Shown here piece after piece: positions 34,257-60,238 of a stretch of DNA of 64,000 bases; position 1 is the stretch's first letter, and each line of letters opens with the position of its first letter. Under the pieces are notes generated by a model. The model made no database searches. It had not been told where the DNA came from and saw only the letters and a program-made list of their open reading frames with translations. Source of the DNA: Henckelia pumila (taxonomy: Eukaryota > Streptophyta > Magnoliopsida > Lamiales > Gesneriaceae); assembly GCF_033568475.1 (NCBI RefSeq), contig NC_133121.1, positions 128,186,375-128,250,374 of the forward strand. The letters are read 5' to 3'. The position numbers and the translations under genes are program-made.

Positions 34257-35685
34257 TGTAGTGACCCTGCATGGTATCACCTACTAACTGGCAACTAATA
34301 GCATGCATTAAACTTAATTCAGCAAAATAACTTAACAGAGTAAAACATGCGAAAACAAAACCATAAAATACATATCAGCTTAGTAATAAAATCCAGGCTT
34401 AAATCTGTAGTGATACAACCAAATCGAAAACTTAAACAGTAAACATTATACAGCTATATTGAATCCTGCTGTATAATAAAATCTTCAAGGCTCATGCTCC
34501 CTAATCCTGCCTTGAACTACCAGCTCCGTCCATCCTGCGACCTGCCCCATGGAATAGGGTGTCCAAGATAACAACTAGGACGTGAGCGCTAACGCCCAGT
34601 ACATGAGTACACGTAAATATATGATGCATGCAACATGATGACTGGTAACGGGTCATTTGAAAATCATGCTCAGTGCCGGCGCCACATGAGTGCTGCCACC
34701 ACACGGATCAACCTCTGGGTGCAACCACACTCGTCCAGTACACCAGAGTAGACAGACATAAATGCCCCCACCGTCGCGGTACTCTCAGTGACAGACTATC
34801 GAATATAGAGCTGAGCGGCTCTATAGTCAGGTATAACAAGGTATAGGCTCAACGTGTATATGCACATGACATATGAATATATAAAGCGGTAAATCATATA
34901 TCATGCCAAATAAATGCAACATATAAACATGTATACTCGCTGGCAATCTCAGTCAATGTGTACGTACCTCTAGGCTAGTTCAAGTAAAATAGGATTCTAG
35001 GTTCCAAGCCTATATTCAAAAGTTCACCGTATCACCTCATAAATTCTATAAGCCTTAACTAAGCTAATAAGTACTCCCAAAACTTAAACAGATTCCCGGA
35101 CCATACCTTCGTCCGTAGTTAGCCCTTTGGAGTCGCTAGTCCCGGATGACTATAACCACACCTTGGTTATTCCAGAACCTCTATTATAACCGATAGGGCC
35201 CTCAAGTGTATATCTCACACTATATAACTGAAGAAAGAAACTCGGGAATTCGTATTTAGAAATGAATCTGAGAAGCCCTATTTATAGGCAAAATTCCCGG
35301 CCAGGATCGGAACTTCCGATTTCAGGATCGGAGCTTCCGATCAGCTCACTGCATGCATGTGTGACATATCGGGATCGGAACGTCCGATCGGGCGATCGGA
35401 GCTTCCGATCTGCTCTACGTTCAACACTTGTCAAAACTCGCGGCTGAGTCATCGAGCATTGCTGGCAGCTGGAGATCGGAACTTTCGTTCCAGGATCGGA
35501 GCTTCCGATCTCTGTGCTTCCGATGAGGTTCCGAAGTGGCTAGGATCGGAGCTTCCGATCTGGGTTCGGAGCTTCCGATCCGGCCCAAAGTCAAAAGCCC
35601 AAATTAAACTCCGGAATCAGTTAATTACTAACCCTTAATCATGTTTAACATATTATTATCTTAAAATATAATCTGGGTTACTACA
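34257..35685 (-). repeat. 3' LTR of the gypsy element, copy A (1429 bp)
   Basis: Forward strand starts TGTAGTGACC and ends GGTTACTACA, and a polypurine tract (35686-35699) lies just inside. A TATA box on the - strand is at 35279-35286, with eight paired quasi-palindromes directly upstream of it. Confidence 0.85.
35279..35581 (-). promoter_or_regulatory. Gypsy LTR promoter: TATA box plus paired 17-bp quasi-palindromes
   Basis: On the - strand TATAAATA occupies 35286-35279. Upstream of it (higher coordinates) are eight copies of GATCGGANNTTCCGATC or close variants. They start at 35305/35326, 35373/35394, 35474/35494 and 35544/35564: four pairs with 21, 21, 20 and 20 bp between starts. The nearest copy is 18 bp from the TATA box. 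Position suggests an upstream activating array; the binding protein is unknown. Confidence 0.7.
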
Positions 35686-35699
35686 TTCTCCCCACCTTT
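35686..35699 (-). other. Gypsy polypurine tract, copy A
   Basis: On the - strand this reads AAAGGTGGGGAGAA immediately before the LTR, the expected plus-strand primer. Confidence 0.8.
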
Positions 35700-35805
35700 A
35701 GATATTTCGTCCGCGAAATAACATCTAAAGACAAATCAAGATAACAATATGAAACATCAAACCATGTTTTATTACAACAACTGTAATTACATCTTACATG
35801 GTAAA

Positions 35806-36315
35806 TCAAAAGTACAAAGCAAACAACTCAGGATATTCCGCTTGCATACGACTTTCAGTTTCCCAAGTTGCTTTTTCAACGCCTCGGCGCTGCCACTGTA
35901 CCATCACAAGTGGTATAGTCTTATTCCGAAGAACTCTCTCCTTCCTGTCTAGGATACGGATTGGTCGTTCAACAAAAGACAGATCTGGCTCTAGCTGAAT
36001 ATCAGTAGACTGAATCACATGAGATTCATCAGCTATATACTGTCGAAGTAACGACACATGAAAAACATTATGTATATTGGAAAGAGTTGGCGGTAAAGTC
36101 AAACGATATGCAACATCTCCGATCTTTTCTAGTATCTGGAAAGGTCCAATAAAACGAGGAGATAACTTTCCTTTCACGCCGAATCTCATCACCTTTCTGA
36201 AAGGTGATACTTGGAGAAACACATATTCACCAGGCTCAAACTGAAGTGGCTTGCGACGAATATTAGCGTAACTGGCTTGTCTATCTTGAGCAACTTTGAT
36301 CCTATGCTTGATCAA
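35806..36315 (-). CDS. Gypsy integrase C-terminal and chromodomain segment, copy A
   Basis: 169 residues: the integrase C-terminal GPF/Y-type region (RFIGPFQILEKIGDVAYRL) and then a chromodomain-like end (about residues 118-165: ILDRKERVLRNKTIPLVMVQ, then TWETES). Chromovirus chromodomains target insertion to heterochromatin. It is separated from the integrase core by a TAG (LVQ-stop-IVDKVDL, likely CAG to TAG), shared by all copies in the window. The listed ATG is internal; the natural protein is the end of pol. Confidence 0.85.
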   Translation of the reverse strand: MIKHRIKVAQDRQASYANIRRKPLQFEPGEYVFLQVSPFRKVMRFGVKGKLSPRFIGPFQILEKIGDVAYRLTLPPTLSNIHNVFHVSLLRQYIADESHVIQSTDIQLEPDLSFVERPIRILDRKERVLRNKTIPLVMVQWQRRGVEKATWETESRMQAEYPELFALYF

Positions 36316-36333
36316 ATCTACCTTGTCTACAAT

Positions 36334-37824
36334 CTACTGCACCAATTCAGGACCCTCGACTTGTCGTTCCCCGACTTCATCCCAGAATAACGGAGTACGA
36401 CACCGTCGACCATACAATGCCTTGAAAGGTGTCATATCAATACTACGATGATAACTGTTATTGTAGGCAAATTCGTTCAAAGATAACTGATCCTGCCAAG
36501 ATAAGCCAAAATCCATGACAGAAGAACGTAGCATATCCTCCAGCGTACGAATCGTCCGTTCTGACTGCCCGTCAGTCTCCGGATGATATGCAGTGCTCAA
36601 ACTCAGAGTGGTACCCAACGCCTCCTGAAAACTACCCCAAAAACGTGAGGTAAATCGTGGATCTCTATCACTGACTATGCTCACTGGAATCCCATGTAAT
36701 TGCACTATCTCCTGGATGTATAAACGTGTCATGCGATCATAAGAATACTCCCGGTTATAAGGAATAAAGTATTCTGATTTTGTCAAACGGTCAACAACGA
36801 CCCAGATAGCATCACACTGACGTGAAGTCATAGGTAAGTGGGTAACAAAATCCATAGTTACGTGCTCCCACTTCCATTCGGAAATCTCAAGATTCTGTAG
36901 TAATCCACCTGGTCGTCGGTGTTCAGCCTTGACCTGTTGACAAACCAAACATCTTGAAACAAATTGATACACACTTCGCTTCATCCCTTTCCACCAGAAT
37001 CTAGTTCGCAAGTCCTTATACATTTTCATGCTTCCAGGATGGACTGATAATCGACTCCTATGTGCTTGAGAAAAAATATCATTCCTGAGCTCCGCAACAT
37101 TATGTACAACCACTTGATTAGATAAGCACAATAAACCATCTGCCTGAAAATGAAATCCAGATGTATTAACTCCATTGGCTAAACGTGCCAAACGGTGAGT
37201 CTTAACATCAGATATCTGAGCATCTCTGATCCGAGAATACAATGCTGGCTCATACAAAATAGTATACAACCGAATCCCATTTCTCCCTTTCTTGTGCTTG
37301 AGCGTAAAACTCAATGAACAATACTCTTGAATCATATGAGATATTTCACTAGTCTGAAGTGCAGAAAGTCTCACCTGCCGACTCAAGGCATCAGCAGTAA
37401 GATTAACAGAACCTGGATGATATTTAATTTCACAATCATAATCCTTCAGAAGATCCATCCAGCGTCTCTGTTGCATATTCAACTCCGCCTGAGTGAATAA
37501 ATACTTCAAACTCTTGTGATCCGTGAATATCTCAAATTTCTTGTCATAAAGATAATGCCTCCAAATCTTGAGTGCAAATACAATGGCGGCTAATTCGAGA
37601 TCATGTACTGGATAATTACTCTCATGCGCCTTCAACTGTCGAGAAGCATAGGCAATAACATGTCCATGCTGTGTTAGAACACATCCTAACCCCTGACCAG
37701 AGGCATCAGTATAGACAACATAACCTCCTGATCCAGAAGGTAGAGCTAGCACAGGTGCAATAGTCAGACGTCTACGCAGCTCGTGAAATGACTTCACAAT
37801 CCGAGGACCAAATGAAGGTAACAT
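36334..37824 (-). CDS. Gypsy RNase H and integrase, copy A
   Basis: 496 residues. RNase H comes first ([13 protein letters not shown] near residue 37, then [11 protein letters not shown] and DALSR). Integrase follows with an HHCC zinc domain ([17 protein letters not shown]) and a DDE core ([28 protein letters not shown]). The true frame starts further upstream; a frame break near 37772-37824 separates it from RT (the ORFs overlap in different frames). It ends at the TAG shared with the other copies. Confidence 0.88.
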
Positions 37825-38962
37825 CTTTCCGAGTAAGCTGAGTCAAAGGCCTGGCCAACTGTGAAAAATTCTCGATGAACCGACGGTAATATCCAGCTAG
37901 ACCCAAGAAACTACGAATCTCAGCAACCATCGTTGGACGAGACCAGTTCAGCACTGCCTCTATCTTACTAGGATCAACAGATATCCCTTCATTAGAAATC
38001 ACATGACCGAGAAACACTACCCGATCAAGCCAGAATTCACACTTGCTCAATTTCGCATACAGCTGCTTATCTCGTAACGTCTGTAAAACAATCCGTAGAT
38101 GTTGTGCATGCTCATCCTTGTCATGAGAATAGACAAGAATATCATCAATGAAGACGATGACAAATCTATCCAGATACTCTCGAAATATCTTATTCATCAG
38201 ATTCATAAAGACTGCCTGTGCATTCGTCAAACCGAATGGCATCACCAGAAATTCATAATGCCCGTATCTGGTCCTGAAAGCAGTCGTAGATATATATGAG
38301 TCTCGTACCCGCATCTGATGGTATCCAGATCTCAGATCTATCTTCGAGTAAACAGAAGTACCCTGTAATTGATCGAACAGATCATCAATCCGCGGCAAAG
38401 GATACTTATTCTTGATGGTGACACGATTCAACTGCCTGTAATCAATACATACTCGCATTAATCCATCTTTCTTCTTGACAAATAAAACAGGTGCTCCCCA
38501 CGAAAAAACACTCGGACGAATATATCCCTTATCAAGCAAATTCTGTAATTGATGTTTCAATTCCCTCATCTCTGAAGGTTCCAGACGATAAGGTGCTCGG
38601 GATATAGGCGTAGTTCCTGGTACTAAATGAATACCAAATTCAACCTCTCGCACCGGAGGAAAACCAGGAATCTCATCAGGGAATACATCAGGAAACTCGC
38701 TGATAACCGATAACTGATCAATACTCGTACTACTCGTGGACATATCAACTGCGTAGATGAGGTAGCCCTCCTCACCTGACTCCAATACATGACATGCCTT
38801 CAGAGCCGAAACAAGTGGCATCGGAAGTCGCGCACCCTCACCATAAAAATACCAGCTATCACCCACAATCGGATGAAACTGTACCAGACGCTGATAACAA
38901 TCCACAGTAGCATGATACAAAGTCAGCATATCTATTCCCAAGATACAGTCAAAATCTGTCAT
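37772..38962 (-). CDS. Gypsy reverse transcriptase, copy A
   Basis: 396 residues, from the end of protease ([10 protein letters not shown]) through RT. Motifs: [40 protein letters not shown], and the catalytic FIDDILVYS. Compared with copy B it carries a private D-to-Y change (MRVRDSYIS versus MRVRDSDIS). Its upstream continuation is interrupted 3 bp before the Sirevirus target duplication, so the ATG at 38962 is not the natural start. Confidence 0.88.
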
Positions 38963-38964
38963 CG

Positions 38965-38969
38965 CTAAT
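38965..38969. other. Target-site duplication CTAAT, left of the Sirevirus-type element
   Basis: CTAAT directly precedes the left LTR and recurs directly after the right LTR at 48215-48219. The perfect 5-bp duplication proves a single insertion event into gypsy. Confidence 0.92.
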
Positions 38970-40125
38970 TGTTAGAACCTAATGGGAGGGGGGGGGGGAT
39001 TTAGGTTCTATTGGCAACTTTAGCAATTTAAAGAGATTATGCAAATACGCAAGCGGAAAACTTAAAGCAATTAATAATAAGTGCAGTAAATAAATGCGTA
39101 AAGTAAATAAAGCAGTAAAAGGGATAAGAGATGTTTATGGAAGTTCGACGATAAATCATCTACGTCTCCCCTTCTTGGGTTAAGATCGATTAACCAAGAA
39201 TCCACTAGCACTTTGAACAACTTGTCTTTGATGGATCCAAGGATAGCCTTACAACTTGACACGTTCACCGCGCCGATACAACTCAACACTTGGTCTTAAG
39301 GGTTCCAAGGATAGCCTCAACAATCACACAACACTTGGTTTCACACTCAAGTGTTTACACCAACGATGTTCACAACCCCGGATACAACTCGATATATGAA
39401 TATATTTTGAAAGCTCAAAGGGGCTACAAATTTCTCAACAAATAGCTCAAATAATGCTTAAGAGGATTCAGAGACTTGAAGATGTTGGGATACTTGAAAT
39501 GGTCTCGGAATGCCTCTATTTATAGTTGAAAATTTGGCATCGATCGGAACTTTCGTTCCCAGCATCGGAGCTTCCAAAATGTGAATTGTGAGTCACACGG
39601 TTTGTACAGGATCGGAACTTCCGATCTCACTTCGTAGCTTCCGATCGGCGCATTAAATATGTTGTCGGGAAAAAGTCTTCCAGACAAGATTATCAGGCCG
39701 CCGTAGTAGATCGAAACTTCCGATATATGATCGGTGCTTCCGATCTCGTCACTTCGTAGCTTCCGTTCTGTTTTCGAACAATATAAAATTCCTTGAAAAT
39801 AGATCGGAGCTTCCAAACCATGATCGGAACGTCCGATCGTCCCTTAGCTTTCGAAGATCCTTCTGTTCTGGATCGGAGGTTCCGAACTCCAATCGGAACT
39901 TCCGAACTCGTAGTAGAGTAAGTCTTTGAAATTTGTTTCTGATCTTGAATAAACTTGTACGAAATTGAGCCTTGAAAATTTTAACTCTGTAATAAGCTCA
40001 TTGTAAACATTAGTAACATTTTAACCTAGATTTGTTAATCATCAAAACATAAACAAAAGGGCCTTGTTAATGCATTAAAAACATTAATCTCACAATCGAG
40101 ATTTATATGCGTTTAAGGCGTAACA
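38970..40125 (-). repeat. 3' LTR of the Sirevirus-type element, copy A (1156 bp)
   Basis: Starts TGTTAGAACC and ends GGCGTAACA, with a G-rich run of about a dozen bases near the left end. Contains a - strand TATA box (39517-39524) and the motif array upstream of it. Confidence 0.92.
39517..39907 (-). promoter_or_regulatory. Sirevirus LTR promoter: TATA box plus paired quasi-palindromes
   Basis: TATAAATA on the - strand at 39524-39517. Upstream of it lie about eleven full or degenerate copies of the 17-bp motif, starting near 39542/39563, 39610/39630, 39709/39729/39752, 39802/39822 and 39871/39891, that is, mostly 20-21 bp spacing within a group. The nearest copy is 17 bp from the TATA box, close to the 18 bp seen in the unrelated gypsy LTR. 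Confidence 0.68.
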
Positions 40126-40139
40126 ATCTCCCCCTTTTT
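40126..40139 (-). other. Sirevirus polypurine tract, copy A
   Basis: On - this reads AAAAAGGGGGAGAT immediately before the LTR. Confidence 0.85.
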
Positions 40140-40426
40140 GATGATCACAAAACTTGGTTAAAAATAGAAAATAAAAATAGACAATAAAAAGCATATAAGT
40201 ATTTAAATTGCATGTAAAAACTCCCCCTGAAATAAGCAACATAGTTTTTAACAAATAAATAGTTTTTACTCAATTTAACTGTTAAACCAATTAATTCTCC
40301 CTTTTTTTTGTGATAAGCAAAAAGTAATAATAAGTGAATAAAAGAGAATGAATATAAAATATTTTATTTCAATAGAATTTAAATTTTACATAAGACCAAA
40401 TACAACTTAAAATGCAAAATAAAAAT

Positions 40427-41644
40427 CTAAGAGTCATCATCGCGAGTCGGCGGAGGATAGCGAGAGGTGAACTCATCAAATTGGGTCTCCAAAGAAGCAA
40501 CTCTAGCAGTCAACTCGGAAAAGTGAGTGTGCATGCTCGTCTCCATACGATGAAGTGTCTCGAATATATGGTCGCTAGGGAATTGGTTTGCTGGGGTTGC
40601 AGGGACCTCAGGAGTTTGGAAAGGAACATCTTCAAGGTTTGCCGCAAAGGCCTCAAAACTGGAAGATGATGGAATATCAGAGTTAGGAGGACCAGTCGGA
40701 AAACCTTTGATTTGGATAGAGTGGGGAAGAGAGGAATATGGTAAATGAAAGGCAGAAATAGGTGAAAATCTAGAAAATACTCTTCCTCGATCTTCAACCC
40801 ATCGAGAATACACAAGATTCCAGGATAAATCTATCCTGGTGATAGACTGATGGTTAAATATGTGACTTGGTGGGATTTCAATAAAAGGTATCCCATCAAA
40901 TTTAACATCAAAACGACTCAAAATCCGGTTGATAAACCGGGCATAAGGAAAAGAAACCTTTTTCACCGTCTTTGCCGTGTGATGCATAGTCTGCATAATA
41001 AAGCGCGGAAGGTTAAAAGGTCGAGATGAAATGATATGAAATAGAATGTATAAATCTAAATATTTGAAAGTGGAGAGGTCTCCACTGCGAGGAACGATAG
41101 AAGTGGTAATGAGTTTTTGAATGATTTGAAAATCAGGACAAAGACTCTTGAGGTGAATACGATCATCAGCAGCAGTAGCTGGACGACCAAGAATGGTAGA
41201 AAGTAACAACTCGCAATCAAAAGTAGGATCATTTTGAGGCCAGTTTTGCGAGAAGTATTCACCGGGTCCATTCCTGGGAAGATCAAACCAGGAGGACAAA
41301 TCAGTAGAAGAAAAACGAATATGCCTGCCTTGAACAATCGTGGCAATGATGATCTCACCATGACCTAATTCGAGTTCAAGATTGGCATAGAACTCGTGAA
41401 TGAGAGAAATGTAGATGGAGTCATGGACAGATGGAAGAAAGAAAGATTCCCACTGTTGAGCCTTGATAAGGTCCAATAGAAGGAGATGAGACTGGGCTAA
41501 ATAGGCGGAATCTAAGATACGACCAGGATGAATAGTACGGTCCTGATAGTCTTCGGGAATGGGCCTAGAGATGGTAGGCTGGGTCGGATCATGGGATTGG
41601 GCTTGGCTTGTAGTGGCTACAGCACGACGGCATTTGGATGCCAT
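40427..41644 (-). CDS. Sirevirus third (env-like) ORF, copy A
   Basis: An intact 405-residue ORF between pol and the 3' LTR. The middle (about residues 75-270: IHEFYANLELELG, GRHIRFSSTDLSSWFDLP) resembles what I know as the putative plant transposon protein domain (PF20167-like) often found downstream of Sirevirus pol. The C-terminal ~60 residues (FETLHRMETSMHTHFSELTA onward) have a heptad-like, coiled-coil pattern. I see no signal peptide or membrane segment, so 'env-like' denotes position only. It stays intact in both copies although gag and pol are broken. Its own TATA box and motif array lie just upstream (41722-42067). Role unknown. Confidence 0.8.
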   Translation of the reverse strand: MASKCRRAVATTSQAQSHDPTQPTISRPIPEDYQDRTIHPGRILDSAYLAQSHLLLLDLIKAQQWESFFLPSVHDSIYISLIHEFYANLELELGHGEIIIATIVQGRHIRFSSTDLSSWFDLPRNGPGEYFSQNWPQNDPTFDCELLLSTILGRPATAADDRIHLKSLCPDFQIIQKLITTSIVPRSGDLSTFKYLDLYILFHIISSRPFNLPRFIMQTMHHTAKTVKKVSFPYARFINRILSRFDVKFDGIPFIEIPPSHIFNHQSITRIDLSWNLVYSRWVEDRGRVFSRFSPISAFHLPYSSLPHSIQIKGFPTGPPNSDIPSSSSFEAFAANLEDVPFQTPEVPATPANQFPSDHIFETLHRMETSMHTHFSELTARVASLETQFDEFTSRYPPPTRDDDS

Positions 41645-41721
41645 TTAGAGAGGTTTAGATCGGATTAAAGGGAGAAAAGAAGATGATTTTTAGGTGTGAA
41701 AAATCGGAATGAGCGATCTGA

Positions 41722-42067
41722 TATTTATAGGGACGGAATCGATCGGAAGCTCCGATCTGCGATCGGACGTTCCGATCAAGCGGTCGACTTAAATCAAGAC
41801 ACGTGTCGATCGGAAGCTCCGAACGTTCTTCGGACGTTCCGATCCTGAAGCGGTAATTAGTTTTAAGGCGGTGAAAATAATTCAAAAAGCCGGATAAGAT
41901 ATGGATCGGAAGTTCCGATTTGTGATCGGAGGTTCCGATCTATGTCTTGGAGGGAAAATTACCGCATAGAATAGGAAATGGCGGGATAGGGATCGGAAGT
42001 TCCGATTCTCAATCGGTCTTTCCGATCCGGAATTGGTGATTCTGATCCAGAATCGGTGGTTCCGATC
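41722..42067 (-). promoter_or_regulatory. Putative internal promoter of the third ORF, copy A
   Basis: A - strand TATAAATA (41729-41722) lies 78 bp before the third-ORF ATG. Upstream are ten copies of the 17-bp quasi-palindrome, starting at 41741/41761, 41808/41828, 41904/41924 and 41991/42011/42031/42051: intervals are exactly 20 bp within each group. The nearest is 11 bp from the TATA box. Relative to the LTR arrays the motif centre is in the opposite orientation (AAGCT versus AGCTT). Confidence 0.65.
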
Positions 42068-47048: not shown

Positions 47049-47049
47049 T
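47037..47049 (-). other. Sirevirus primer-binding site
   Basis: On -, TGGTATCAGAGCC lies two bases inside the 5' LTR, complementary to the 3' end of plant initiator tRNA-Met. Confidence 0.9.
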
Positions 47050-48214
47050 TGTTAGAACCTAATGGGGGGGGGGGGGGGGGATTTAGGTTCTATTGGCAAC
47101 TTTAGCAATTTAAAGAGATTATGCAAATACGCAAGCGGAAAACTTAAAGCAATTAATAATAAGTGCAGTAAATAAATGCGTAAAGTAAATAAAGCAGTAA
47201 AAGGGATAAGAGATGTTTATGGAAGTTCGACGATAAATCATCTACGTCTCCCCTTCTTGGGTTAAGATCGATTAACCAAGAATCCACTAGCACTTTGAAC
47301 AACTTGTCTTTGATGGCTCCAAGGATAGCCTTACAACTTGACACGTTCACCGCGCCGATACAACTCAACACTTGGTTTTAAGGGTTCCAAGGATAGCCTC
47401 AACAATCACACAACACTTGGTTTCACACTCAAGTGTTTACACCAACGATGTTCACAACCCCGGATACAACTCGATATATGAATATATTTTGAAAGCTCAA
47501 AGGGGCTACAAATTTCTCAACAAATAGCTCAAATAATGCTTAAGAGGATTCAGAGACTTGAAGATGTTGGGATACTTGAAATGGTCTCGGAATGCCTCTA
47601 TTTATAGTTGAAAATTTGGCATCGATCGGAACTTTCGTTCCCAGCATCGGAGCTTCCAAAATTTGAATTCCGAGTCACGTGGTTTGTACAGGATCGGAAC
47701 TTCCGATCTCATTTCGTAGCTTCCGATCGGCGCATTAAATATGTTGTCGGGCAAAAGTCTTCCGGACAAGATTATCAGGCCGCCGTAGTAGATTGGAACT
47801 TCCGATCTATGATCGGTGCTTCCGATCTCGTCACTTCGTACTTCGTAGATTCCGTTCTGTTTCCGAACAATATAAAATTTCTTAAAAATAGATTGGAGCT
47901 TCCGAACCATGATCGGAACGTCCGATCGTCCCTTAGCTTCCAAATATCCTTCTGTTCTGGATCGGAGGTTCCGAACTCCAATCGGAACTTCCGAACTCGT
48001 AGTAGTATAATTCTTTGAAATTTGTTTCTGATCTTGAATAAACTAGTACGAAATTGAGCCTTGAAAATTTTAACTCTATAATAAGCTCATTGTAAACATT
48101 AGTAACATTTTAACCTAGATTTGTTAATCATCAAAACATAAACAAAAGGGCCTTGTTAATGCATTAAAAACATTAATCTCACAATCGAGATTTATATGCA
48201 TTTAAGGCGTAACA
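47050..48214 (-). repeat. 5' LTR of the Sirevirus-type element (1165 bp)
   Basis: Same termini as the left LTR, with a pure G-run of about 18 near the left end. The TATA box is at 47599-47606 and the paired motif array at 47624-47998. An extra copy of ACTTCGTA near 47834 alters motif spacing here. Other differences from the left LTR are scattered substitutions. Confidence 0.9.
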
Positions 48215-48644: not shown

Positions 48645-48884
48645 CTACTGACCGCAAATATAACAAGCACCAGTAGCTCTCCGACATGAAGCTGCAGGAT
48701 GCTTCCCTCCACAATAACTACAAAACTCCTCCTTCTTCTTCTTCTTCTTTCCAAAACGGAACATACCTCGTGAACCACGAGATCCAGATGAAGTAGTAGG
48801 AGTAGAAGAAGACGTAGGTCCAGATTGCACAACAGATTGAGCTCGAGTCTCAAAAGATCCACTAGGTTGTGCTGGCATCATCAA
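48645..48884 (-). CDS. Gypsy gag C-terminal piece with zinc knuckle start
   Basis: 79 residues ending at the knuckle (CYICGQ then TAG), with a Lys-rich stretch and an upstream half-knuckle-like CSYCGGKHPAASC. It begins after a TGA in the left arm of the foldback. The right arm keeps CGA at the matching place, so the TGA arose by C-to-T after the foldback formed. Confidence 0.7.
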   Translation of the reverse strand: MMMPAQPSGSFETRAQSVVQSGPTSSSTPTTSSGSRGSRGMFRFGKKKKKKEEFCSYCGGKHPAASCRRATGACYICGQ

Positions 48885-49129
48885 CTGTGCTCACCTGTTG
48901 CTAGTCTCCACAAGACGGCAACGGTTCACCAAAGTCTCAAAAGATACCGGGTCATCACAGACGACAACCTGAGAGTAGATATCTTGGTTCAAACCTTGCA
49001 GAAAGATATCTACTCTCAGGTTGTCGTCTGTGATGATCCGGTATCTTTTGAGACTTTGGTGAACCGTTGCCGTCTTGTGGAGACTAGCAACAGGCGAGCA
49101 CAGTTGATGATGTCAGCACAGCCTAGTGG
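48859..49129. repeat. Foldback: 127-bp inverted arms with a 17-bp spacer inside gypsy gag
   Basis: Left arm 48859-48985 and right arm 49003-49129 are reverse complements with only a few mismatches and no indels; paired coordinates sum to 97988 throughout. Both arms derive from the same gag coding stretch (SQVVVCDDPVSFETLVNRCR). The right arm is inverted relative to the element, destroying the gag frame. Confidence 0.9.
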
Positions 49130-49775: not shown

Positions 49776-50731
49776 GTCAAACGATATGCAACATCTCCGA
49801 TCTTTTCTAGTATCTGGAAAGGTCCAATAAAACGAGGAGATAACTTTCCTTTCACGCCGAATCTCATCACCTTTCTGAAAGGTGATACTTGGAGAAACAC
49901 ATATTCACCAGGCTCAAACTGAAGTGGCTTGCGACGAATATTAGCATAACTGGCTTGTCTATCTTGAGCAACTTTGATCCTATGCTTGATCAAATCTACC
50001 TTGTCTACAATCTACTGCACCAATTCAGGACCCTCGACTTGTCGTTCCCCGACTTCATCCCAGAATAACGGAGTACGACACCGTCGACCATACAATGCCT
50101 TGAAAGGTGTCATATCAATACTACGATGATAACTGTTATTGTAGGCAAATTCGTTCAAAGATAACTGATCCTGCCAAGATAAGCCAAAATCCATGACAGA
50201 AGAACGTAGCATATCCTCCAGCGTACGAATCGTCCGTTCTGACTGCCCGTCAGTCTCCGGATGATATGCAGTGCTCAAACTCAGAGTGGTACCCAACGCC
50301 TCCTGAAAACTACCCCAAAAACGTGAGGTAAATCGTGGATCTCTATCACTGACTATGCTCACTGGAATCCCATGTAATTGCACTATCTCCTGGATGTATA
50401 AACGTGTCATGCGATCATAAGAATACTCCCGGTTATAAGGAATAAAGTATTCTGATTTTGTCAAACGGTCAACAACGACCCAGATAGCATCACACTGACG
50501 TGAAGTCATAGGTAAGTGGGTAACAAAATCCATAGTTACGTGCTCCCACTTCCATTCGGAAATCTCAAGATTCTGTAGTAATCCACCTGGTCGTCGGTGT
50601 TCAGCCTTGACCTGTTGACAAACCAAACATCTTGAAACAAATTGATACACACTTCGCTTCATCCCTTTCCACCAGAATCTAGTTCGCAAGTCCTTATACA
50701 TTTTCATGCTTCCAGGATGGACTGATAATCG
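49776..50731 (-). mobile_element. 956-bp extra copy of gypsy integrase region at the duplication junction
   Basis: Matches 36098-37053 (offset 13678) almost base for base, including the TAG in LVQ-stop-IVDK. Left edge: three unmatched bases (CTT) after the LTR stub. Right edge: an ATCG microhomology with the start of the second unit. It encodes the end of the integrase zinc domain and the core, but is only a fragment. Confidence 0.88.
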
Positions 50732-52775
50732 TCTGATATCTCGGGATATATTTATTTTTTCGCATGAACTTAGATCGGGATTTGTGATCATCAGACAGAT
50801 TATTGGTGGTAATTGGTGTTTGATAATTATTAATGGATATGGGTCTGTCAAATATTTACTATCTACATCTGGGTTTGGACTTGTCAATATAATTAAATCA
50901 TGGGCCGCATCCCATGAGACCAGGGACCTGCATATCATCTGATCATGGACTTTTGCCCTCTTAGTTATGGACTGACATCAGGGGCTACACGTCTTCCACG
51001 ATCTACATCACAGGGGACACCAGTACACGTCTTCCACGATCTACATCACAGGGAAGTTTTTACGATATATACTGGTTTTTCCTGATTACACAGACAAGTT
51101 GGGAAGAGAGTTTCTACACTTTCTTCCCCATGATGTCTCTCACAATTTTCTTCTATATTTTTCTCTCATGTTTCTCTGCCTGACTTAGGCATCGGATGGG
51201 TCACGCCGGGAGAAATCCTGGCGCCCCCTGACCGGTTTATTCATGATTTTCAGGCAAGGACAGTCGGAGAATTCACAAAGACGACGAAGGAAATTTTTTG
51301 GGATGTCATCATTGGCGCCGTCTGTAGGAAATTGAGTCTGATTCAATTTCTCTCTTTCTCTTAAAAAAAAGCATCCGGGCAGAAAGAATTCCTCTCTTAC
51401 TCCCGCTTAAAAAAAAGGATGTACCTTAACCAGGACATTCTTGGGTTTATTCCATCGGTTGTTGCGGCTTTTTCAAGTTTTTTCAATTGTTTCTACAGCC
51501 CAAGTCTTGAACCAGACAACATCTTCATTCTCGAATTTTCTGCTGCTCGATGGGGAGAAGTAACATGAGCAACAGATTTTTGGTGAAGGTGGGCCACCGC
51601 AAATTTCATTTCTGCTTAGGAATTAGGGCTCTTACATTCCGACTTCCGGATTTCGAATTGCTGCTGGGTTGGGGTTGCTTGGATTCGATTCTAGAGTGTT
51701 TATGGGCTTGTTGTTCGTATGTTGAAGCTATTTTCTTGACTACCCTGTGGTTGCATTTCGAGCTTGAACAGTTTTCTATCTGCTCAAATTTGAGAGCTTC
51801 TAATTGCCATCTCTGTTTTGGTTCGAGTTACTGGTGCGTGAAGGCTGTTGGGGAGCGTTTGATGCAATGTTTATCATTGTTTGGAGTTTTTGTGGTGCTG
51901 TTCTGGCTGCCTTTGTCACTTATGAACATGTCTCAAAATTATGCCCGCCAAGTGATTGACATATTGCTTGCTGGTTGGATTATGGTTTCTCTGATATGTG
52001 GGGAACGATTTCATGCTCCTCGGTCTCATTATAAGTTGTACGTCTCAGTTAGTGCTTCTTTGGGCTTCCTTAATGGCCCAGTAGATAACGTTTCTACATG
52101 GCTGCTACATTGTGCATCCATCGAATCGGCGCGCGACGTTATCCTGAGGAATATGATGATATAATTTTGATCTTTGGCTTAATATTTTCTTTTAAGTGCA
52201 GGGACAACACCTGAAGCATGATTCCATTGGCAATGATCTCGGGCCAATACGAGATGAATACATCAGGAAGAACAAGGGAAGTCAATACATAACCACGAAG
52301 TTTTCTTGGGGTGTTCGAATGTCGGGAACCGAGGCGCTACATCTCATTTATGTTTTGCTTGCAATGGACTTTTACTTTTTTAATTATCAAGAGCTGTAGC
52401 TCGACATGACGCATCGACTTCTAGCTCAATGCCACGCCTCGATTCCTTCTGTTGCGCTCGGTGTTTGATGCATTTTTTGAATTGGTTTTTCACATTTGCC
52501 GAGTTGAGTTTTGGCGGGACAGTGGTGGACGCGAAGCCGTCTCCGGTGGTGATGGTGTTCATCTCGAGGAGACCCAACACGACCATATTGCAAATTCGGA
52601 GGTCTCGTATGGTGAAGTCGGACTTAAATATCTTACGACATAAGCAGCTTGACAGCTTGATTTGGAGCAGTCGGGCCCATCGGGCTTGGGATGGACGTTT
52701 GGAGGGAGTCGGGTTTCCTTTCCTAAATCCTATAAGCCCAACGCATATCTCCGGGAGAAATATAAGTATTGATTT
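50730..52775 (+). mobile_element. LARD-like element, copy B, 5'-truncated
   Basis: Corresponds to 32211-34256, lacking the first 28 bp of the LTR. Holds the 30-bp repeat pair, the primer-like site (from about 51312) and the internal ORFs. Confidence 0.7.
51550..52164 (+). CDS. Unrecognised 204-residue ORF, copy B
   Basis: Same protein as the copy A ORF at 33031-33645. See that entry for composition; function unknown. Confidence 0.3.
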   Translation: MGRSNMSNRFLVKVGHRKFHFCLGIRALTFRLPDFELLLGWGCLDSILECLWACCSYVEAIFLTTLWLHFELEQFSICSNLRASNCHLCFGSSYWCVKAVGERLMQCLSLFGVFVVLFWLPLSLMNMSQNYARQVIDILLAGWIMVSLICGERFHAPRSHYKLYVSVSASLGFLNGPVDNVSTWLLHCASIESARDVILRNMMI

Positions 52776-54204
52776 TGTAGTGACCCTGCATGGTATCACC
52801 TACTAACTGGCAACTAATAGCATGCATTAAACTTAATTCAGCAAAATAACTTAACAGAGTAAAACATGCGAAAACAAAACCATAAAATACATATCAGCTT
52901 AGTAATAAAATCCAGGCTTAAATCTGTAGTGATACAACCAAATCGAAAACTTAAACAGTAAACATTATACAGCTATATTGAATCCTGCTGTATAATAAAA
53001 TCTTCAAGGCTCATGCTCCCTAATCCTGCCTTGAACTACCAGCTCCGTCCATCCTGCGACCTGCCCCATGGAATAGGGTGTCCAAGATAACAACTAGGAC
53101 GTGAGCGCTAACGCCCAGTACATGAGTACACGTAAATATATGATGCATGCAACATGATGACTGGTAACGGGTCATTTGAAAATCATGCTCAGTGCCGGCG
53201 CCACATGAGTGCTGCCACCACACGGATCAACCTCTGGGTGCAACCACACTCGTCCAGTACACCAGAGTAGACAGACATAAATGCCCCCACCGTCGCGGTA
53301 CTCTCAGTGACAGACTATCGAATATAGAGCTGAGCGGCTCTATAGTCAGGTATAACAAGGTATAGGCTCAACGTGTATATGCACATGACATATGAATATA
53401 TAAAGCGGTAAATCATATATCATGCCAAATAAATGCAACATATAAACATGTATACTCGCTGGCAATCTCAGTCAATGTGTACGTACCTCTAGGCTAGTTC
53501 AAGTAAAATAGGATTCTAGGTTCCAAGCCTATATTCAAAAGTTCACCGTATCACCTCATAAATTCTATAAGCCTTAACTAAGCTAATAAGTACTCCCAAA
53601 ACTTAAACAGATTCCCGGACCATACCTTCGTCCGTAGTTAGCCCTTTGGAGTCGCTAGTCCCGGATGACTATAACCACACCTTGGTTATTCCAGAACCTC
53701 TATTATAACCGATAGGGCCCTCAAGTGTATATCTCACACTATATAACTGAAGAAAGAAACTCGGGAATTCGTATTTAGAAATGAATCTGAGAAGCCCTAT
53801 TTATAGGCAAAATTCCCGGCCAGGATCGGAACTTCCGATTTCAGGATCGGAGCTTCCGATCAGCTCACTGCATGCATGTGTGACATATCGGGATCGGAAC
53901 GTCCGATCGGGCGATCGGAGCTTCCGATCTGCTCTACGTTCAACACTTGTCAAAACTCGCGGCTGAGTCATCGAGCATTGCTGGCAGCTGGAGATCGGAA
54001 CTTTCGTTCCAGGATCGGAGCTTCCGATCTCTGTGCTTCCGATGAGGTTCCGAAGTGGCTAGGATCGGAGCTTCCGATCTGGGTTCGGAGCTTCCGATCC
54101 GGCCCAAAGTCAAAAGCCCAAATTAAACTCCGGAATCAGTTAATTACTAACCCTTAATCATGTTTAACATATTATTATCTTAAAATATAATCTGGGTTAC
54201 TACA
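52776..54204 (-). repeat. Gypsy 3' LTR, copy B
   Basis: TG...CA bounds as in copy A. TATA box at 53798-53805 on - and the eight paired motifs at 53824-54100. Confidence 0.85.
53798..54100 (-). promoter_or_regulatory. Gypsy LTR promoter array, copy B
   Basis: Same eight quasi-palindromes in four 20-21 bp pairs upstream of TATAAATA as in copy A (35279-35581). Confidence 0.68.
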
Positions 54205-54324
54205 TTCTCCCCACCTTTAGATATTTCGTCCGCGAAATAACATCTAAAGACAAATCAAGATAACAATATGAAACATCAAACCATGTTTTATTACAACAAC
54301 TGTAATTACATCTTACATGGTAAA

Positions 54325-54834
54325 TCAAAAGTACAAAGCAAACAACTCAGGATATTCCGCTTGCATACGACTTTCAGTTTCCCAAGTTGCTTTTTCAACG
54401 CCTCGGCGCTGCCACTGTACCATCACAAGTGGTATAGTCTTATTCCGAAGAACTCTCTCCTTCCTGTCTAGGATACGGATTGGTCGTTCAACAAAAGACA
54501 GATCTGGCTCTAGCTGAATATCAGTAGACTGAATCACATGAGATTCATCAGCTATATACTGTCGAAGTAACGACACATGAAAAACATTATGTATATTGGA
54601 AAGAGTTGGCGGTAAAGTCAAACGATATGCAACATCTCCGATCTTTTCTAGTATCTGGAAAGGTCCAATAAAACGAGGAGATAACTTTCCTTTCACGCCG
54701 AATCTCATCACCTTTCTGAAAGGTGATACTTGGAGAAACACATATTCACCAGGCTCAAACTGAAGTGGCTTGCGACGAATATTAGCATAACTGGCTTGTC
54801 TATCTTGAGCAACTTTGATCCTATGCTTGATCAA
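54325..54834 (-). CDS. Gypsy integrase C-terminal and chromodomain segment, copy B
   Basis: Identical in protein to 35806-36315, including the upstream TAG separating it from the integrase core. Confidence 0.85.
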   Translation of the reverse strand: MIKHRIKVAQDRQASYANIRRKPLQFEPGEYVFLQVSPFRKVMRFGVKGKLSPRFIGPFQILEKIGDVAYRLTLPPTLSNIHNVFHVSLLRQYIADESHVIQSTDIQLEPDLSFVERPIRILDRKERVLRNKTIPLVMVQWQRRGVEKATWETESRMQAEYPELFALYF

Positions 54835-54852
54835 ATCTACCTTGTCTACAAT

Positions 54853-56343
54853 CTACTGCACCAATTCAGGACCCTCGACTTGTCGTTCCCCGACTTCATC
54901 CCAGAATAACGGAGTACGACACCGTCGACCATACAATGCCTTGAAAGGTGTCATATCAATACTACGATGATAACTGTTATTGTAGGCAAATTCGTTCAAA
55001 GATAACTGATCCTGCCAAGATAAGCCAAAATCCATGACAGAAGAACGTAGCATATCCTCCAGCGTACGAATCGTCCGTTCTGACTGCCCGTCAGTCTCCG
55101 GATGATATGCAGTGCTCAAACTCAGAGTGGTACCCAACGCCTCCTGAAAACTACCCCAAAAACGTGAGGTAAATCGTGGATCTCTATCACTGACTATGCT
55201 CACTGGAATCCCATGTAATTGCACTATCTCCTGGATGTATAAACGTGTCATGCGATCATAAGAATACTCCCGGTTATAAGGAATAAAGTATTCTGATTTT
55301 GTCAAACGGTCAACAACGACCCAGATAGCATCACACTGACGTGAAGTCATAGGTAAGTGGGTAACAAAATCCATAGTTACGTGCTCCCACTTCCATTCGG
55401 AAATCTCAAGATTCTGTAGTAATCCACCTGGTCGTCGGTGTTCAGCCTTGACCTGTTGACAAACCAAACATCTTGAAACAAATTGATACACACTTCGCTT
55501 CATCCCTTTCCACCAGAATCTAGTTCGCAAGTCCTTATACATTTTCATGCTTCCAGGATGGACTGATAATCGACTCCTATGTGCTTGAGAAAAAATATCA
55601 TTCCTGAGCTCCGCAACATTATGTACAACCACTTGATTAGATAAGCACAATAAACCATCTGCCTGAAAATGAAATCCAGATGTATTAACTCCATTGGCTA
55701 AACGTGCCAAACGGTGAGTCTTAACATCAGATATCTGAGCATCTCTGATCCGAGAATACAATGCTGGCTCATACAAAATAGTATACAACCGAATCCCATT
55801 TCTCCCTTTCTTGTGCTTGAGCGTAAAACTCAATGAACAATACTCTTGAATCATATGAGATATTTCACTAGTCTGAAGTGCAGAAAGTCTCACCTGCCGA
55901 CTCAAGGCATCAGCAGTAAGATTAACAGAACCTGGATGATATTTAATTTCACAATCATAATCCTTCAGAAGATCCATCCAGCGTCTCTGTTGCATATTCA
56001 ACTCCGCCTGAGTGAATAAATACTTCAAACTCTTGTGATCCGTGAATATCTCAAATTTCTTGTCATAAAGATAATGCCTCCAAATCTTGAGTGCAAATAC
56101 AATGGCGGCTAATTCGAGATCATGTACTGGATAATTACTCTCATGCGCCTTCAACTGTCGAGAAGCATAGGCAATAACATGTCCATGCTGTGTTAGAACA
56201 CATCCTAACCCCTGACCAGAGGCATCAGTATAGACAACATAACCTCCTGATCCAGAAGGTAGAGCTAGCACAGGTGCAATAGTAAGACGTCTACGCAGCT
56301 CGTGAAATGACTTCACAATCCGAGGACCAAATGAAGGTAACAT
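54853..56343 (-). CDS. Gypsy RNase H and integrase, copy B
   Basis: 496 residues, the same protein as 36334-37824: RNase H (YTDASG), HHCC zinc domain and DDE core. The frame break to RT is also shared, so it predates the duplication. Confidence 0.88.
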
Positions 56344-57481
56344 CTTTCCGAGTAAGCTGAGTCAAAGGCCTGGCCAACTGTGAAAAATTCTCGATGAACC
56401 GACGGTAATATCCAGCTAGACCCAAGAAACTACGAATCTCAGCAACCATCGTTGGACGAGACCAGTTCAGCACTGCCTCTATCTTACTAGGATCAACAGA
56501 TATCCCTTCATTAGAAATCACATGACCGAGAAACACTACCCGATCAAGCCAGAATTCACACTTGCTCAATTTCGCATACAGCTGCTTATCTCGTAACGTC
56601 TGTAAAACAATCCGTAGATGTTGTGCATGCTCATCCTTGTCATGAGAATAGACAAGAATATCATCAATGAAGACGATGACAAATCTATCCAGATACTCTC
56701 GAAATATCTTATTCATCAGATTCATAAAGACTGCCTGTGCATTCGTCAAACCGAATGGCATCACCAGAAATTCATAATGCCCGTATCTGGTCCTGAAAGC
56801 AGTCGTAGATATATCTGAGTCTCGTACCCGCATCTGATGGTATCCAGATCTCAGATCTATCTTCGCGTAAACAGAAGTACCCTGTAATTGATCGAACAGA
56901 TCATCAATCCGCGGCAAAGGATACTTATTCTTGATGGTGACACGATTCAACTGCCTGTAATCAATACATACTCGCATTAATCCATCTTTCTTCTTGACAA
57001 ATAAAACAGGTGCTCCCCACGAAAAAACACTCGGACGAATATATCCCTTATCAAGCAAATTCTGTAATTGATGTTTCAATTCCCTCATCTCTGAAGGTTC
57101 CAGACGATAAGGTGCTCGGGATATAGGCGTAGTTCCTGGTACTAAATGAATACCAAATTCAACCTCTCGCACCGGAGGAAAACCAGGAATCTCATCAGGG
57201 AATACATCAGGAAACTCGCTGATAACCGATAACTGATCAATACTCGTACTACTCGTGGACATATCAACTGCGTAGATGAGGTAGCCCTCCTCACCTGACT
57301 CCAATACATGACATGCCTTCAGAGCCGAAACAAGTGGCATCGGAAGTCGCGCACCCTCACCATAAAAATACCAGCTATCACCCACAATCGGATGAAACTG
57401 TACCAGACGCTGATAACAATCCACAGTAGCATGATACAAAGTCAGCATATCTATTCCCAAGATACAGTCAAAATCTGTCAT
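56291..57481 (-). CDS. Gypsy reverse transcriptase, copy B
   Basis: 396 residues with FIDDILVYS. Differs from copy A at two residues I can see: VYAKIDL (A has VYSKIDL) and RVRDSDIS (A has RVRDSYIS). Each copy therefore has one private change from the usual family residue. Confidence 0.88.
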
Positions 57482-57488
57482 CGCTAAT

Positions 57489-58642
57489 TGTTATAACCTA
57501 ATGGGAGGGGGGGGGATTTAGGTTCTATTGGCAACTTTAGCAATTTAAAGAGATTATGCAAATACGCAAGCGGAAAACTTAAAGCAATTAATAATAAGTG
57601 CAGTAAATAAATGCGTAAAGTAAATAAAGCAGTAAAAGGGATAAGAGATGTTTATGGAAGTTCGACGATAAATCATCTACGTCTCCCCTTCTTGGGTTAA
57701 GATCGATTAACCAAGAATCCACTAGCACTTTGAACAACTTGTCTTTGATGGATCCAAGGATAGCCTTACAACTTGACACGTTCACCGCGCCGATACAACT
57801 CAACACTTGGTCTTAAGGGTTCCAAGGATAGCCTCAACAATCACACAACACTTGGTTTCACACTCAAGTGTTTACACCAACGATGTTCACAACCCCGGAT
57901 ACAACTCGATATATGAATATATTTTGAAAGCTCAAAGGGGCTACAAATTTCTCAACAAATAGCTCAAATAATGCTTAAGAGGATTCAGAGACTTGAAGAT
58001 GTTGGGATACTTGAAATGGTCTCGGAATGCCTCTATTTATAGTTGAAAATTTGGCATCGATCGGAACTTTCGTTCCCAGCATCGGAGCTTCCAAAATGTG
58101 AATTCTGAGTCACACGGTTTGTACAGGATCGGAACTTCCGATCTCACTTCGTAGCTTCCGATCGGCGCATTAAATATGTTGTCGGGAAAAAGTCTTCCAG
58201 ACAAGATTATCAGGCCGCCGTAGTAGATCGAAACTTCCGATATATGATCGGTGCTTCCGATCTCGTCACTTCGTAGCTTCCGTTCTGTTTTCGAACAATA
58301 TAAAATTCCTTGAAAATAGATCGGAGCTTCCAAACCATGATCGGAACGTCCGATCGTCCCTTAGCTTTCGAAGATCCTTCTGTTCTGGATCGGAGGTTCC
58401 GAACTCCAATCGGAACTTCCGAACTCGTAGTAGAGTAAGTCTTTGAAATTTGTTTCTGATCTTGAATAAACTTGTACGAAATTGAGCCTTGAAAATTTTA
58501 ACTCTGTAATAAGCTCATTGTAAACATTAGTAACATTTTAACCTAGATTTGTTAATCATCAAAACATAAACAAAAGGGCCTTGTTAATGCATTAAAAACA
58601 TTAATCTCACAATCGAGATTTATATGCGTTTAAGGCGTAACA
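57489..58642 (-). repeat. Sirevirus 3' LTR, copy B
   Basis: Matches 38970-40125 but begins TGTTATAACC (G to T) and has a shorter G-run. TATA box at 58034-58041 and motif array to about 58424. Confidence 0.9.
58034..58424 (-). promoter_or_regulatory. Sirevirus LTR promoter array, copy B
   Basis: Same TATA box and paired quasi-palindromes as 39517-39907. Confidence 0.66.
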
Positions 58643-58943
58643 ATCTCCCCCTTTTTGATGATCACAAAACTTGGTTAAAAATAGAAAATAAAAATAGACA
58701 ATAAAAAGCATATAAGTATTTAAATTGCATGTAAAAACTCCCCCTGAAATAAGCAACATAGTTTTTAACAAATAAATAGTTTTTACTCAATTTAACTGTT
58801 AAACCAATTAATTCTCCCTTTTTTTTGTGATAAGCAAAAAGTAATAATAAGTGAATAAAAGAGAATGAATATAAAATATTTTATTTCAATAGAATTTAAA
58901 TTTTACATAAGACCAAATACAACTTAAAATGCAAAATAAAAAT

Positions 58944-60161
58944 CTAAGAGTCATCATCGCGAGTCGGCGGAGGATAGCGAGAGGTGAACTCATCAAATTG
59001 GGTCTCCAAAGAAGCAACTCTAGCAGTCAACTCGGAAAAGTGAGTGTGCATGCTCGTCTCCATACGATGAAGTGTCTCGAATATATGGTCGCTAGGGAAT
59101 TGGTTTGCTGGGGTTGCAGGGACCTCAGGAGTTTGGAAAGGAACATCTTCAAGGTTTGCCGCAAAGGCCTCAAAACTGGAAGATGATGGAATATCAGAGT
59201 TAGGAGGACCAGTCGGAAAACCTTTGATTTGGATAGAGTGGGGAAGAGAGGAATATGGTAAATGAAAGGCAGAAATAGGTGAAAATCTAGAAAATACTCT
59301 TCCTCGATCTTCAACCCATCGAGAATACACAAGATTCCAGGATAAATCTATCCTGGTGATAGACTGATGGTTAAATATGTGACTTGGTGGGATTTCAATA
59401 AAAGGTATCCCATCAAATTTAACATCAAAACGACTCAAAATCCGGTTGATAAACCGGGCATAAGGAAAAGAAACCTTTTTCACCGTCTTTGCCGTGTGAT
59501 GCATAGTCTGCATAATAAAGCGCGGAAGGTTAAAAGGTCGAGATGAAATGATATGAAATAGAATGTATAAATCTAAATATTTGAAAGTGGAGAGGTCTCC
59601 ACTGCGAGGAACGATAGAAGTGGTAATGAGTTTTTGAATGATTTGAAAATCAGGACAAAGACTCTTGAGGTGAATACGATCATCAGCAGCAGTAGCTGGA
59701 CGACCAAGAATGGTAGAAAGTAACAACTCGCAATCAAAAGTAGGATCATTTTGAGGCCAGTTTTGCGAGAAGTATTCACCGGGTCCATTCCTGGGAAGAT
59801 CAAACCAGGAGGACAAATCAGCAGAAGAAAAACGAATATGCCTGCCTTGAACAATCGTGGCAATGATGATCTCACCATGACCTAATTCGAGTTCAAGATT
59901 GGCATAGAACTCGTGAATGAGAGAAATGTAGATGGAGTCATGGACAGATGGAAGAAAGAAAGATTCCCACTGTTGAGCCTTGATAAGGTCCAATAGAAGG
60001 AGATGAGACTGGGCTAAATAGGCGGAATCTAAGATACGACCAGGATGAATAGTACGGTCCTGATAGTCTTCGGGAATGGGCCTAGAGATGGTAGGCTGGG
60101 TCGGATCATGGGATTGGGCTTGGCTTGTAGTGGCTACAGCACGACGGCATTTGGATGCCAT
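58944..60161 (-). CDS. Sirevirus third (env-like) ORF, copy B
   Basis: 405 residues, intact. Differs from copy A by one residue that I can see (RFSSADLSS versus RFSSTDLSS). Domains as in copy A. Confidence 0.8.
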   Translation of the reverse strand: MASKCRRAVATTSQAQSHDPTQPTISRPIPEDYQDRTIHPGRILDSAYLAQSHLLLLDLIKAQQWESFFLPSVHDSIYISLIHEFYANLELELGHGEIIIATIVQGRHIRFSSADLSSWFDLPRNGPGEYFSQNWPQNDPTFDCELLLSTILGRPATAADDRIHLKSLCPDFQIIQKLITTSIVPRSGDLSTFKYLDLYILFHIISSRPFNLPRFIMQTMHHTAKTVKKVSFPYARFINRILSRFDVKFDGIPFIEIPPSHIFNHQSITRIDLSWNLVYSRWVEDRGRVFSRFSPISAFHLPYSSLPHSIQIKGFPTGPPNSDIPSSSSFEAFAANLEDVPFQTPEVPATPANQFPSDHIFETLHRMETSMHTHFSELTARVASLETQFDEFTSRYPPPTRDDDS

Positions 60162-60238
60162 TTAGAGAGGTTTAGATCGGATTAAAGGGAGAAAAGAAGA
60201 TGATTTTTAGGTGTGAAAAATCGGAATGAGCGATCTGA

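Follow-up and report, generated by a model that had tools for sequence, protein, structure and literature searches.

Two long terminal repeat (LTR) retrotransposons of unrelated families, a gypsy element and a Sirevirus, carry arrays of the same 17-bp palindrome just upstream of a TATA octamer in a stretch of Henckelia pumila DNA (64,000 nucleotides of contig NC_133121.1, positions 128,186,375 to 128,250,374, assembly GCF_033568475.1; hereafter the window, to which all coordinates refer). The two elements share the minus strand, with the Sirevirus inserted in the pol region of the gypsy element, and a third kind of array is found before the third, envelope-like open reading frame (ORF3) of the Sirevirus.

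The gypsy element, tentatively chromovirus-like, was recognized from its pol region (35806-38962, minus strand, split by the Sirevirus), in which the Pfam profiles RVT_1, RT_RNaseH, Integrase_H2C2 and SH3_Tf2-1 identify a Ty3-type reverse transcriptase (RT), RNase H and integrase. The rve, RVP_2 and Chromo profiles each score under their curated cut-offs, and the chromodomain at the integrase C-terminus is a weak match (PF00385, E = 0.00039, 20.7 bits against a cut-off of 25.1). A search with the RNase H-integrase protein returned 7975 matches, with identities of 42-60% among the 120 matches listed. The 3′ LTR of this element is ~1.4 kb long (34259-35683, minus strand, ends approximate); it starts near 35683, directly after a purine tract that resembles a polypurine tract (PPT; AAAGGTGGGGAGAATG), and its far end near 34259 was placed with the help of a perfectly matching 34-bp remnant next to TATCAGAGC at 49722, a sequence like a primer-binding site (PBS). 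As both bounds were found, the gypsy array (35305-35580, minus strand) lies within a true LTR.

The Sirevirus is bounded by LTRs at 38969-40125 (3′) and 47049-48214 (5′), both on the minus strand and 96.7% identical, and CTAAT flanks the element on both sides. Its Pfam domains are RVT_2 and Retrotran_gag_2. Two Sirevirus signatures defined in PMC2829016 are present: the PPT octamer AGGGGGAG at 40128-40135 (minus strand), 2 bp from the start of the 3′ LTR, with linker copies at 40221 and 42227, and the 5′ LTR/PBS junction CA-A(T/G)TGG-TATCAGAGC, which reads CAAGTGGTATCAGAGC on the minus strand where the 5′ LTR ends (PBS TATCAGAGC at 47036). The LTR end is also C-rich, with a C run that stops 14 bp short of it and may correspond to the published C-rich integrase signal (~19 bp, at a mean of 21 bp from the end). 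ORF3 (40427-41644, minus strand, 405 aa) matches PF20167, and the third array lies between it and the Sirevirus pol.

Palindrome arrays and their layout

Scanning the window for GATCGGA-N3-TCCGATC with at most three mismatches gave 67 matches against 1.5 expected (the maximum among 100 shuffles was 5), and 63 of them fall inside seven arrays. The exact half-sites GATCGGA and TCCGATC follow the same distribution, with 77 of 82 inside the arrays; of the other five, two are a single site of the ORF3 leader together with its duplicate, and three are copies of one site in the integrase region of the gypsy element. The seven arrays represent three independent kinds, those of the gypsy LTR, of the Sirevirus LTR (3′ LTR array at 39542-39907, minus strand) and upstream of ORF3 (41741-42067, minus strand), because the remaining four belong to the other Sirevirus LTR or are copies made by a tandem duplication. 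A simple tandem repeat was considered and rejected, as Tandem Repeats Finder sees merely pieces of 1.9 to 3.5 copies within the arrays. A first-pass annotation, made from the sequence alone, had described three clusters in the gypsy LTR, the Sirevirus LTR and upstream of ORF3; the motif scan reproduces their coordinates, but the added remark that none was noticed elsewhere is corrected by the four further arrays at 47624-47996, 53824-54099, 58059-58424 and 60258-60584.

For the analysis of layout, sites were kept if 10 or more of their 14 arm positions matched (8 gypsy, 11 Sirevirus 3′ LTR and 10 ORF3), and an overlapping pseudo-hit at 35386 (11/14) was excluded from the gypsy set. In all three kinds the octamer TATAAATA stands 11-18 bp from the array on the transcribed strand (gypsy LTR, 35279-35286; Sirevirus 3′ LTR, 39517-39524; ORF3-upstream, 41722-41729; all minus strand), and seven of the 14 such octamers on both strands of the whole window are at arrays. 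With TATTTATA positioned at 35279, 39517 and 41722, the first palindrome lies 18, 17 and 11 bp away. The octamer before ORF3 lies ~80 bp ahead of the ATG with no ATG intervening.

The 17-bp palindromes are arranged in pairs whose members are separated by 3 or 4 bp, giving a half-site period of ~10 bp. The in-pair steps are 21, 21, 20 and 20 bp across the four pairs of the gypsy array, 21 and then four times 20 in the Sirevirus 3′ LTR, and 20 throughout the ORF3 array; the exceptions to pairing are one unpaired site in the Sirevirus LTR and a terminal run of four in the ORF3 array. Pairs 1 and 2 are separated by 30 bp in each of the three arrays (gypsy, Sirevirus LTR and ORF3), which makes the step from palindrome 2 to palindrome 3 equal to 47 bp in all of them. 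Such a coincidence has a probability of 0.0002 when steps are drawn uniformly from 20-100 bp and of 0.02 when the observed steps of each array are put in random order. Measured from the TATA, the pairs start at 26, 94, 195 and 265 in the gypsy array, at 25, 93, 192, 285 and 354 in the Sirevirus 3′ LTR, and at 19, 86, 182, 269 and 309 before ORF3; in placement simulations this agreement has p = 0.001 (gypsy/Sirevirus), 0.0004 (ORF3/Sirevirus) and 0.012 (gypsy/ORF3), although these spacing statistics were selected post hoc with the data already seen, which counts against relying on them. The G-box-like sequence CACGTG was observed at 41800-41805 and 47676-47681, in the 30-bp gap of the ORF3 and Sirevirus 5′ LTR arrays; the Sirevirus 3′ LTR deviates at the matching position.

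The central triplet of the palindrome is restricted. It reads RCK in 8/8 gypsy and 10/11 Sirevirus 3′ LTR sites and in none of the ten ORF3 sites, six of which carry the reverse complement, and the central base is C in 18/19 LTR-array sites versus 0/10 before ORF3 (Fisher p = 5e-7, with sites within an array being non-independent). These counts indicate that the sites are directional, that the direction is coherent within each array, and that the ORF3 array is reversed with respect to its TATA and opposite to the LTR arrays. Much of the first-pass description stands: the 20-21-bp pitch, the TATA gaps and a single module upstream of a TATA common to two unrelated families are all borne out, the last with the gypsy array placed in its LTR. 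The freely variable N3 center gives way to RCK in the two LTR arrays, and the 20-bp run of the third cluster includes a degenerate site at 42031 (10/14).

Proposed function and origin of the arrays

From the sequence, layout, TATA position and LTR membership of the arrays, we infer that all three probably represent a single type of cis-regulatory array close to the promoter, on which a dimeric factor acts in both families. One dimer of this DNA-binding factor would occupy each palindrome of 17 bp (core TCGGA-N3-TCCGA), and pairing on a 20-21-bp pitch would place adjacent dimers on one face of the helix, enabling them to cooperate. The array would activate transcription at the TATAAATA octamer 11-18 bp downstream, yielding genomic RNA from the LTR arrays and a separate ORF3 mRNA, by way of a putative internal promoter, from the ORF3 array; the Sirevirus arrays are the known "repeated motifs" (RMs) of these elements. 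The gypsy LTR offers a natural comparison, with the same palindromes, pairing and spacing in otherwise different sequence, and from it the TCGGA half-sites, the 20-bp pairs and the 47-bp step are likely to matter. As to candidates for the binder, LOB-domain (LBD) factors, a family with CGG-CCG dimer motifs, are a tentative lead; the heat-shock element (consensus nGAAnnTTCn) was rejected as misfitting a center of 1 or 3 bases.

The gypsy module may have been acquired from, or be common with, a Sirevirus through recombination long ago, which we regard as likelier than fresh evolution, with moderate support. The restricted center triplets are identical and equally oriented in the gypsy and Sirevirus LTRs, and an 18-mer common to both, GATCGGAACTTTCGTTCC, deviates from the consensus in the same two places. 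Same-strand alignments of the gypsy array with the Sirevirus arrays exceeded shuffles of site order and gaps combined (p = 0.022 for the 3′ LTR and 0.005 for the 5′ LTR). In ten masked alignments, gypsy against the Sirevirus 3′ LTR was equalled by 0/300 shuffles, against the 5′ LTR it gave p = 0.003 and against ORF3 p = 0.027 (all three on the same strand), with the remaining seven at p ≥ 0.06. Among 15 alignments by region (three of distal U3, six downstream of the TATA and six of gaps), only two same-strand distal U3 comparisons were low (p = 0.002 and 0.008), and none of 662 scores obtained with overlapping windows of real sequence and comparable GC content reached the distal U3 similarity score of 42. 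The p-values of these alignments (10 + 15 tests, plus 30 from the array shuffles) are nominal and uncorrected for multiplicity.

A number of observations pull in the other direction. The question of origin rests on one independent gypsy LTR lineage, a single such LTR being visible in the 64-kb window. Between the gypsy and Sirevirus 3′ LTRs no similarity was detected in the gap pieces compared (TATA to pair 1, gap 1 and gap 2; six tests, p = 0.11 to 0.88), nor between gypsy and Sirevirus downstream of the TATA (six tests, p = 0.27 to 0.82), so that exchange of a larger block is unsupported. Similarity between the distal U3 regions involves AT-rich sequence, and the gypsy region also aligns better than shuffles with non-LTR sequence on the far side of the ORF3 array (p = 0.027); base composition may thus explain part of the similarity, and this control slightly lowers the odds of exchange. 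In the best local alignment, pairs 3-4 of the gypsy array fall on Sirevirus pairs 1-2, a register that disagrees with the TATA-based match, the comparison of gypsy with the Sirevirus 3′ LTR is unremarkable when only the gaps are shuffled (p = 0.22), and the other eight array comparisons gave p ≥ 0.18 under the combined shuffle. As for function, the reversed direction of the ORF3 sites is unexpected for a strictly directional factor. Since the insertion of the Sirevirus its sites have not been visibly better kept than their surroundings (7/187 site positions and 22/970 aligned non-site positions among the 29 differences between the two LTRs), which gives no help to a functional reading. Finally, PMC2829016 could assign no single factor to all RMs.

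Convergence is the alternative with the most in its favor, and we regard it as a serious possibility. The gypsy element and the Sirevirus would each have built an array by internal duplication around the site of a host factor, with no exchange between them; this is a matter of origin and can go together with the regulatory mechanism proposed above. The unrelated gap sequences, among the pieces compared, fit such a history, and the coherent direction within each array is what local duplication would give. In addition, the 5′ CpG island is reported to vary by lineage in monocot Del elements (PMC4029996), from which it follows that gypsy LTRs are able to evolve CpG-rich blocks themselves. Convergence must, however, call on coincidences or on a very strict factor to account for the common triplets, the doubly deviating 18-mer, the pair positions and the weak likeness of the distal U3. 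On this mixed evidence, old exchange is moderately favored over convergence for the origin of the gypsy array. The fuller proposition, that a complete U3 enhancer module passed between Copia and Gypsy, that both answer to the same trans-acting factor and that a reversed second copy serves as the promoter of the Sirevirus third gene, is put forward tentatively. Were exchange true, the control regions of plant retrotransposons would evolve as swappable parts.

Other roles and sources for the palindromes

The palindromes might instead matter as RNA, with hairpins in genomic or read-through transcripts feeding small RNAs and the arrays acting as silencing hotspots and not as activators. All three arrays fold far more strongly than shuffles (z = −6.6, −4.7 and −6.7), and maize Sirevirus palindromes are hotspots of small-RNA mapping (PMC5311732, PMC10760457). 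The CpG observed/expected ratio (o/e) of the arrays is 1.25-1.75, and CpG transitions make up 9 of the 29 differences between the two Sirevirus LTRs, a pattern consistent with methylation. Palindrome arrays fold in any case, however, which accounts for the strong folding, and silencing may follow from an array without being its use; moreover, the short TATA distance, the 20-bp pitch and the 30-bp gap are left unexplained.

The pattern of site conservation also speaks against a role as RNA. Over 58 half-sites, the core is retained (T3 in 55, C4 in 55, G5 in 57, G6 in 53 and A7 in 54) despite the CpG that it contains, and the outer bases are looser (G1 in 45 and A2 in 49); the absolute levels are inflated because sites were picked by their likeness to the consensus, but the contrast between core and outer bases is not built in. 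Deviations affect 37 of 203 arm cells, with both arms changed in one and none compensated, which makes an RNA hairpin unlikely as the conserved feature. The sequence part of the dimer-site interpretation in the first-pass annotation is thereby upheld, the palindrome resembling a pair of DNA half-sites with a retained TCGGA core and no compensation. These data favor DNA half-sites as the conserved feature, with small-RNA effects possible alongside, and a primary role as RNA appears unlikely.

Less probable still is that the arrays are targets of a Sirevirus-encoded protein (for example, ORF3) that counters silencing or trans-activates in the manner of VANC and that the gypsy element exploits. 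The arrays do stand at the LTR promoters and at the presumed promoter of ORF3 itself; the targets of VANC21 are dense short motifs of one orientation in non-coding parts of the same transposable element (TE; PMC5735166), and the direction is coherent here too; and the extra linker copies of RMs are confined to Sireviruses with the envelope-like gene (ENV) in the data of PMC2829016. The same source reports RMs in four ENV-less Sireviruses, so ORF3 is dispensable for LTR arrays, and the function of the gene is experimentally unproven according to the MASiVEdb authors. In our analyses nothing supported ORF3 as a DNA-binding protein: PF20167 was its sole Pfam match, with no DNA-binding domain, and its AlphaFold2 model, built from two sequences, failed (mean predicted local distance difference test score 36.5; unusable apart from a C-terminal helix). 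A protein search found one relative of ORF3 among 3856 candidates (P0001), with an N-terminal extension that may be translated upstream sequence.

Very improbable, lastly, is that the array reached this single gypsy copy by a recent, local gene conversion or as part of a nested fragment of a Sirevirus LTR (the source in one variant may be another Sirevirus family): although the Sirevirus lies just ~3.4 kb away in the same element, its own LTRs remain 96.7% identical while the gypsy and Sirevirus arrays share mainly sites and spacing, with tested gaps that align at shuffle level, the array sits between the PPT-like tract and the TATA in an LTR bounded on both sides, and the likeness to the neighboring LTR stops at the TATA, so that the single local conversion which the first-pass annotation had named as a possible refutation is unlikely.

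Other features of the window

The window contains an 18.5-kb tandem duplication in which 32204-45480 matches 50724-64000 (99.87% identity, 17 differing columns), the window ending inside the second copy. It repeats all three kinds of TATA plus array on the minus strand, at 53798-54099 (gypsy; array 53824-54099), 58034-58424 (Sirevirus LTR; array 58059-58424) and 60239-60584 (ORF3; array 60258-60584). The one remaining array is that of the Sirevirus 5′ LTR (47624-47996), with TATAAATA at 47599. At the duplication junction, a gypsy integrase piece is joined to the start of the next unit across a short stretch common to both sides; the duplication may be a real rearrangement or an assembly artefact. 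Adjoining this junction, and directly after the 34-bp gypsy 5′ LTR remnant, is a 956-bp fragment of the gypsy integrase region (49776-50731) that is 100% identical to 54617-55572. A 271-bp near-perfect palindrome (48859-49129, 93.7%) adjoins the 3′ end of the gypsy gag ORF, and an isolated plus-strand TATCAGAGC at 16229, distant from both elements, may mark another retroelement or be due to chance. Scans of viral contigs with three proteins matched 3, 3 and 15 stretches, none of which was confirmed as a relative, and a scan of viral contigs for the palindrome matched two contigs by pattern alone.

Comparison with known systems

Palindrome arrays in Sirevirus LTRs and before the third ORF have been known since 2010. 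Bousios et al. (PMC2829016) describe palindromic boxes for 13 Sireviruses; the boxes precede the TATA within the LTR, and their core is CGG-CCG in 12 of the 13. Extra linker copies occur in the nine Sireviruses with an envelope-like gene, 77 of 79 lying upstream of that gene. The arrays here resemble these RMs in the CGG-CCG palindrome, in having at least eight copies (here 8, 11 and 10), in their position upstream of the LTR TATA and in the further copies before the ENV ORF. The exact core CGGA-N3-TCCG occurs in 3 of the 13 RMs (HOPIE, OPIE-2 and PREM-2; our count from Table 3), and the full consensus GATCGGA-RCK-TCCGATC differs from all 13. The 20-bp pairing, the 30-bp gap and the site direction described here are absent from the sections of PMC2829016 examined.

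RMs were called Sirevirus-specific and absent from the classic Ty1/copia elements compared there. Two of our three kinds of array are carried by a Sirevirus; the gypsy array, in contrast, belongs to an element with a Ty3-type RT, RNase H and integrase. A regulatory role was proposed for RMs in the same work, and the internal ENV promoter was not conclusively identified; PMC3414828, a later paper with overlapping authors, refers to work on stop-codon suppression or an internal promoter as ways in which the Sirevirus third ORF may be expressed. The TATAAATA octamer 11 bp from the ORF3 array provides an exact location for the idea of an internal promoter for the envelope-like gene.

The RM boxes are reported to form a CpG island (PMC2829016). 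All arrays here have a high CpG o/e (1.25-1.75), and the gypsy array (GC 0.55, CpG o/e 1.25) alone passes thresholds of GC > 0.5 and o/e > 0.6 over 200 bp, the GC content reaching 0.475 in the Sirevirus 3′ LTR array and 0.49 in the ORF3 array. Cruz et al. 2014 (PMC4029996) also described variable 5′ CpG islands in the Del LTRs of monocots, whereas the eudicots of their study had none; for the present DNA, the best named matches of a host protein (among the 120 listed of 302) are eudicot, which is weak evidence on the host. Like the gypsy array, the islands of these chromoviruses are a CpG-rich block in an LTR, there variable and at its 5′ end, a likeness that does not imply Del membership; the gypsy array is palindromic, and the word "palindrom" is absent from the main text of that paper. 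The VANC arrays of VANDAL elements (PMC5735166) are similarly dense, same-orientation short motifs in non-coding TE sequence, but differ in TE class, in motif and in answering to a TE-encoded factor, for which the present elements provide no support.

A text search with six 13-mers of the exact motif returned a single paper, which concerns a human protein, and no report of a palindrome array in a gypsy LTR was found in the literature searched, a limited search with subscription literature mostly outside it. The closest parallel is the maize Sirevirus palindrome CACCGGACNNNGTCCGGTG, which also occurs in Helitrons (PMC10760457), one palindrome being found in two TE superfamilies in both cases. 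There the sharing is between Copia and Helitron, the Ty3/RLG elements generally lacking an obvious peak of such structures in the parts of that study used here; here it is between Copia and Gypsy. What is new relative to the literature searched is thus the same motif array in a gypsy LTR, to which we add the strict paired layout, the coherent direction that is reversed before ORF3 and the TATA 11 bp from the ORF3 array.

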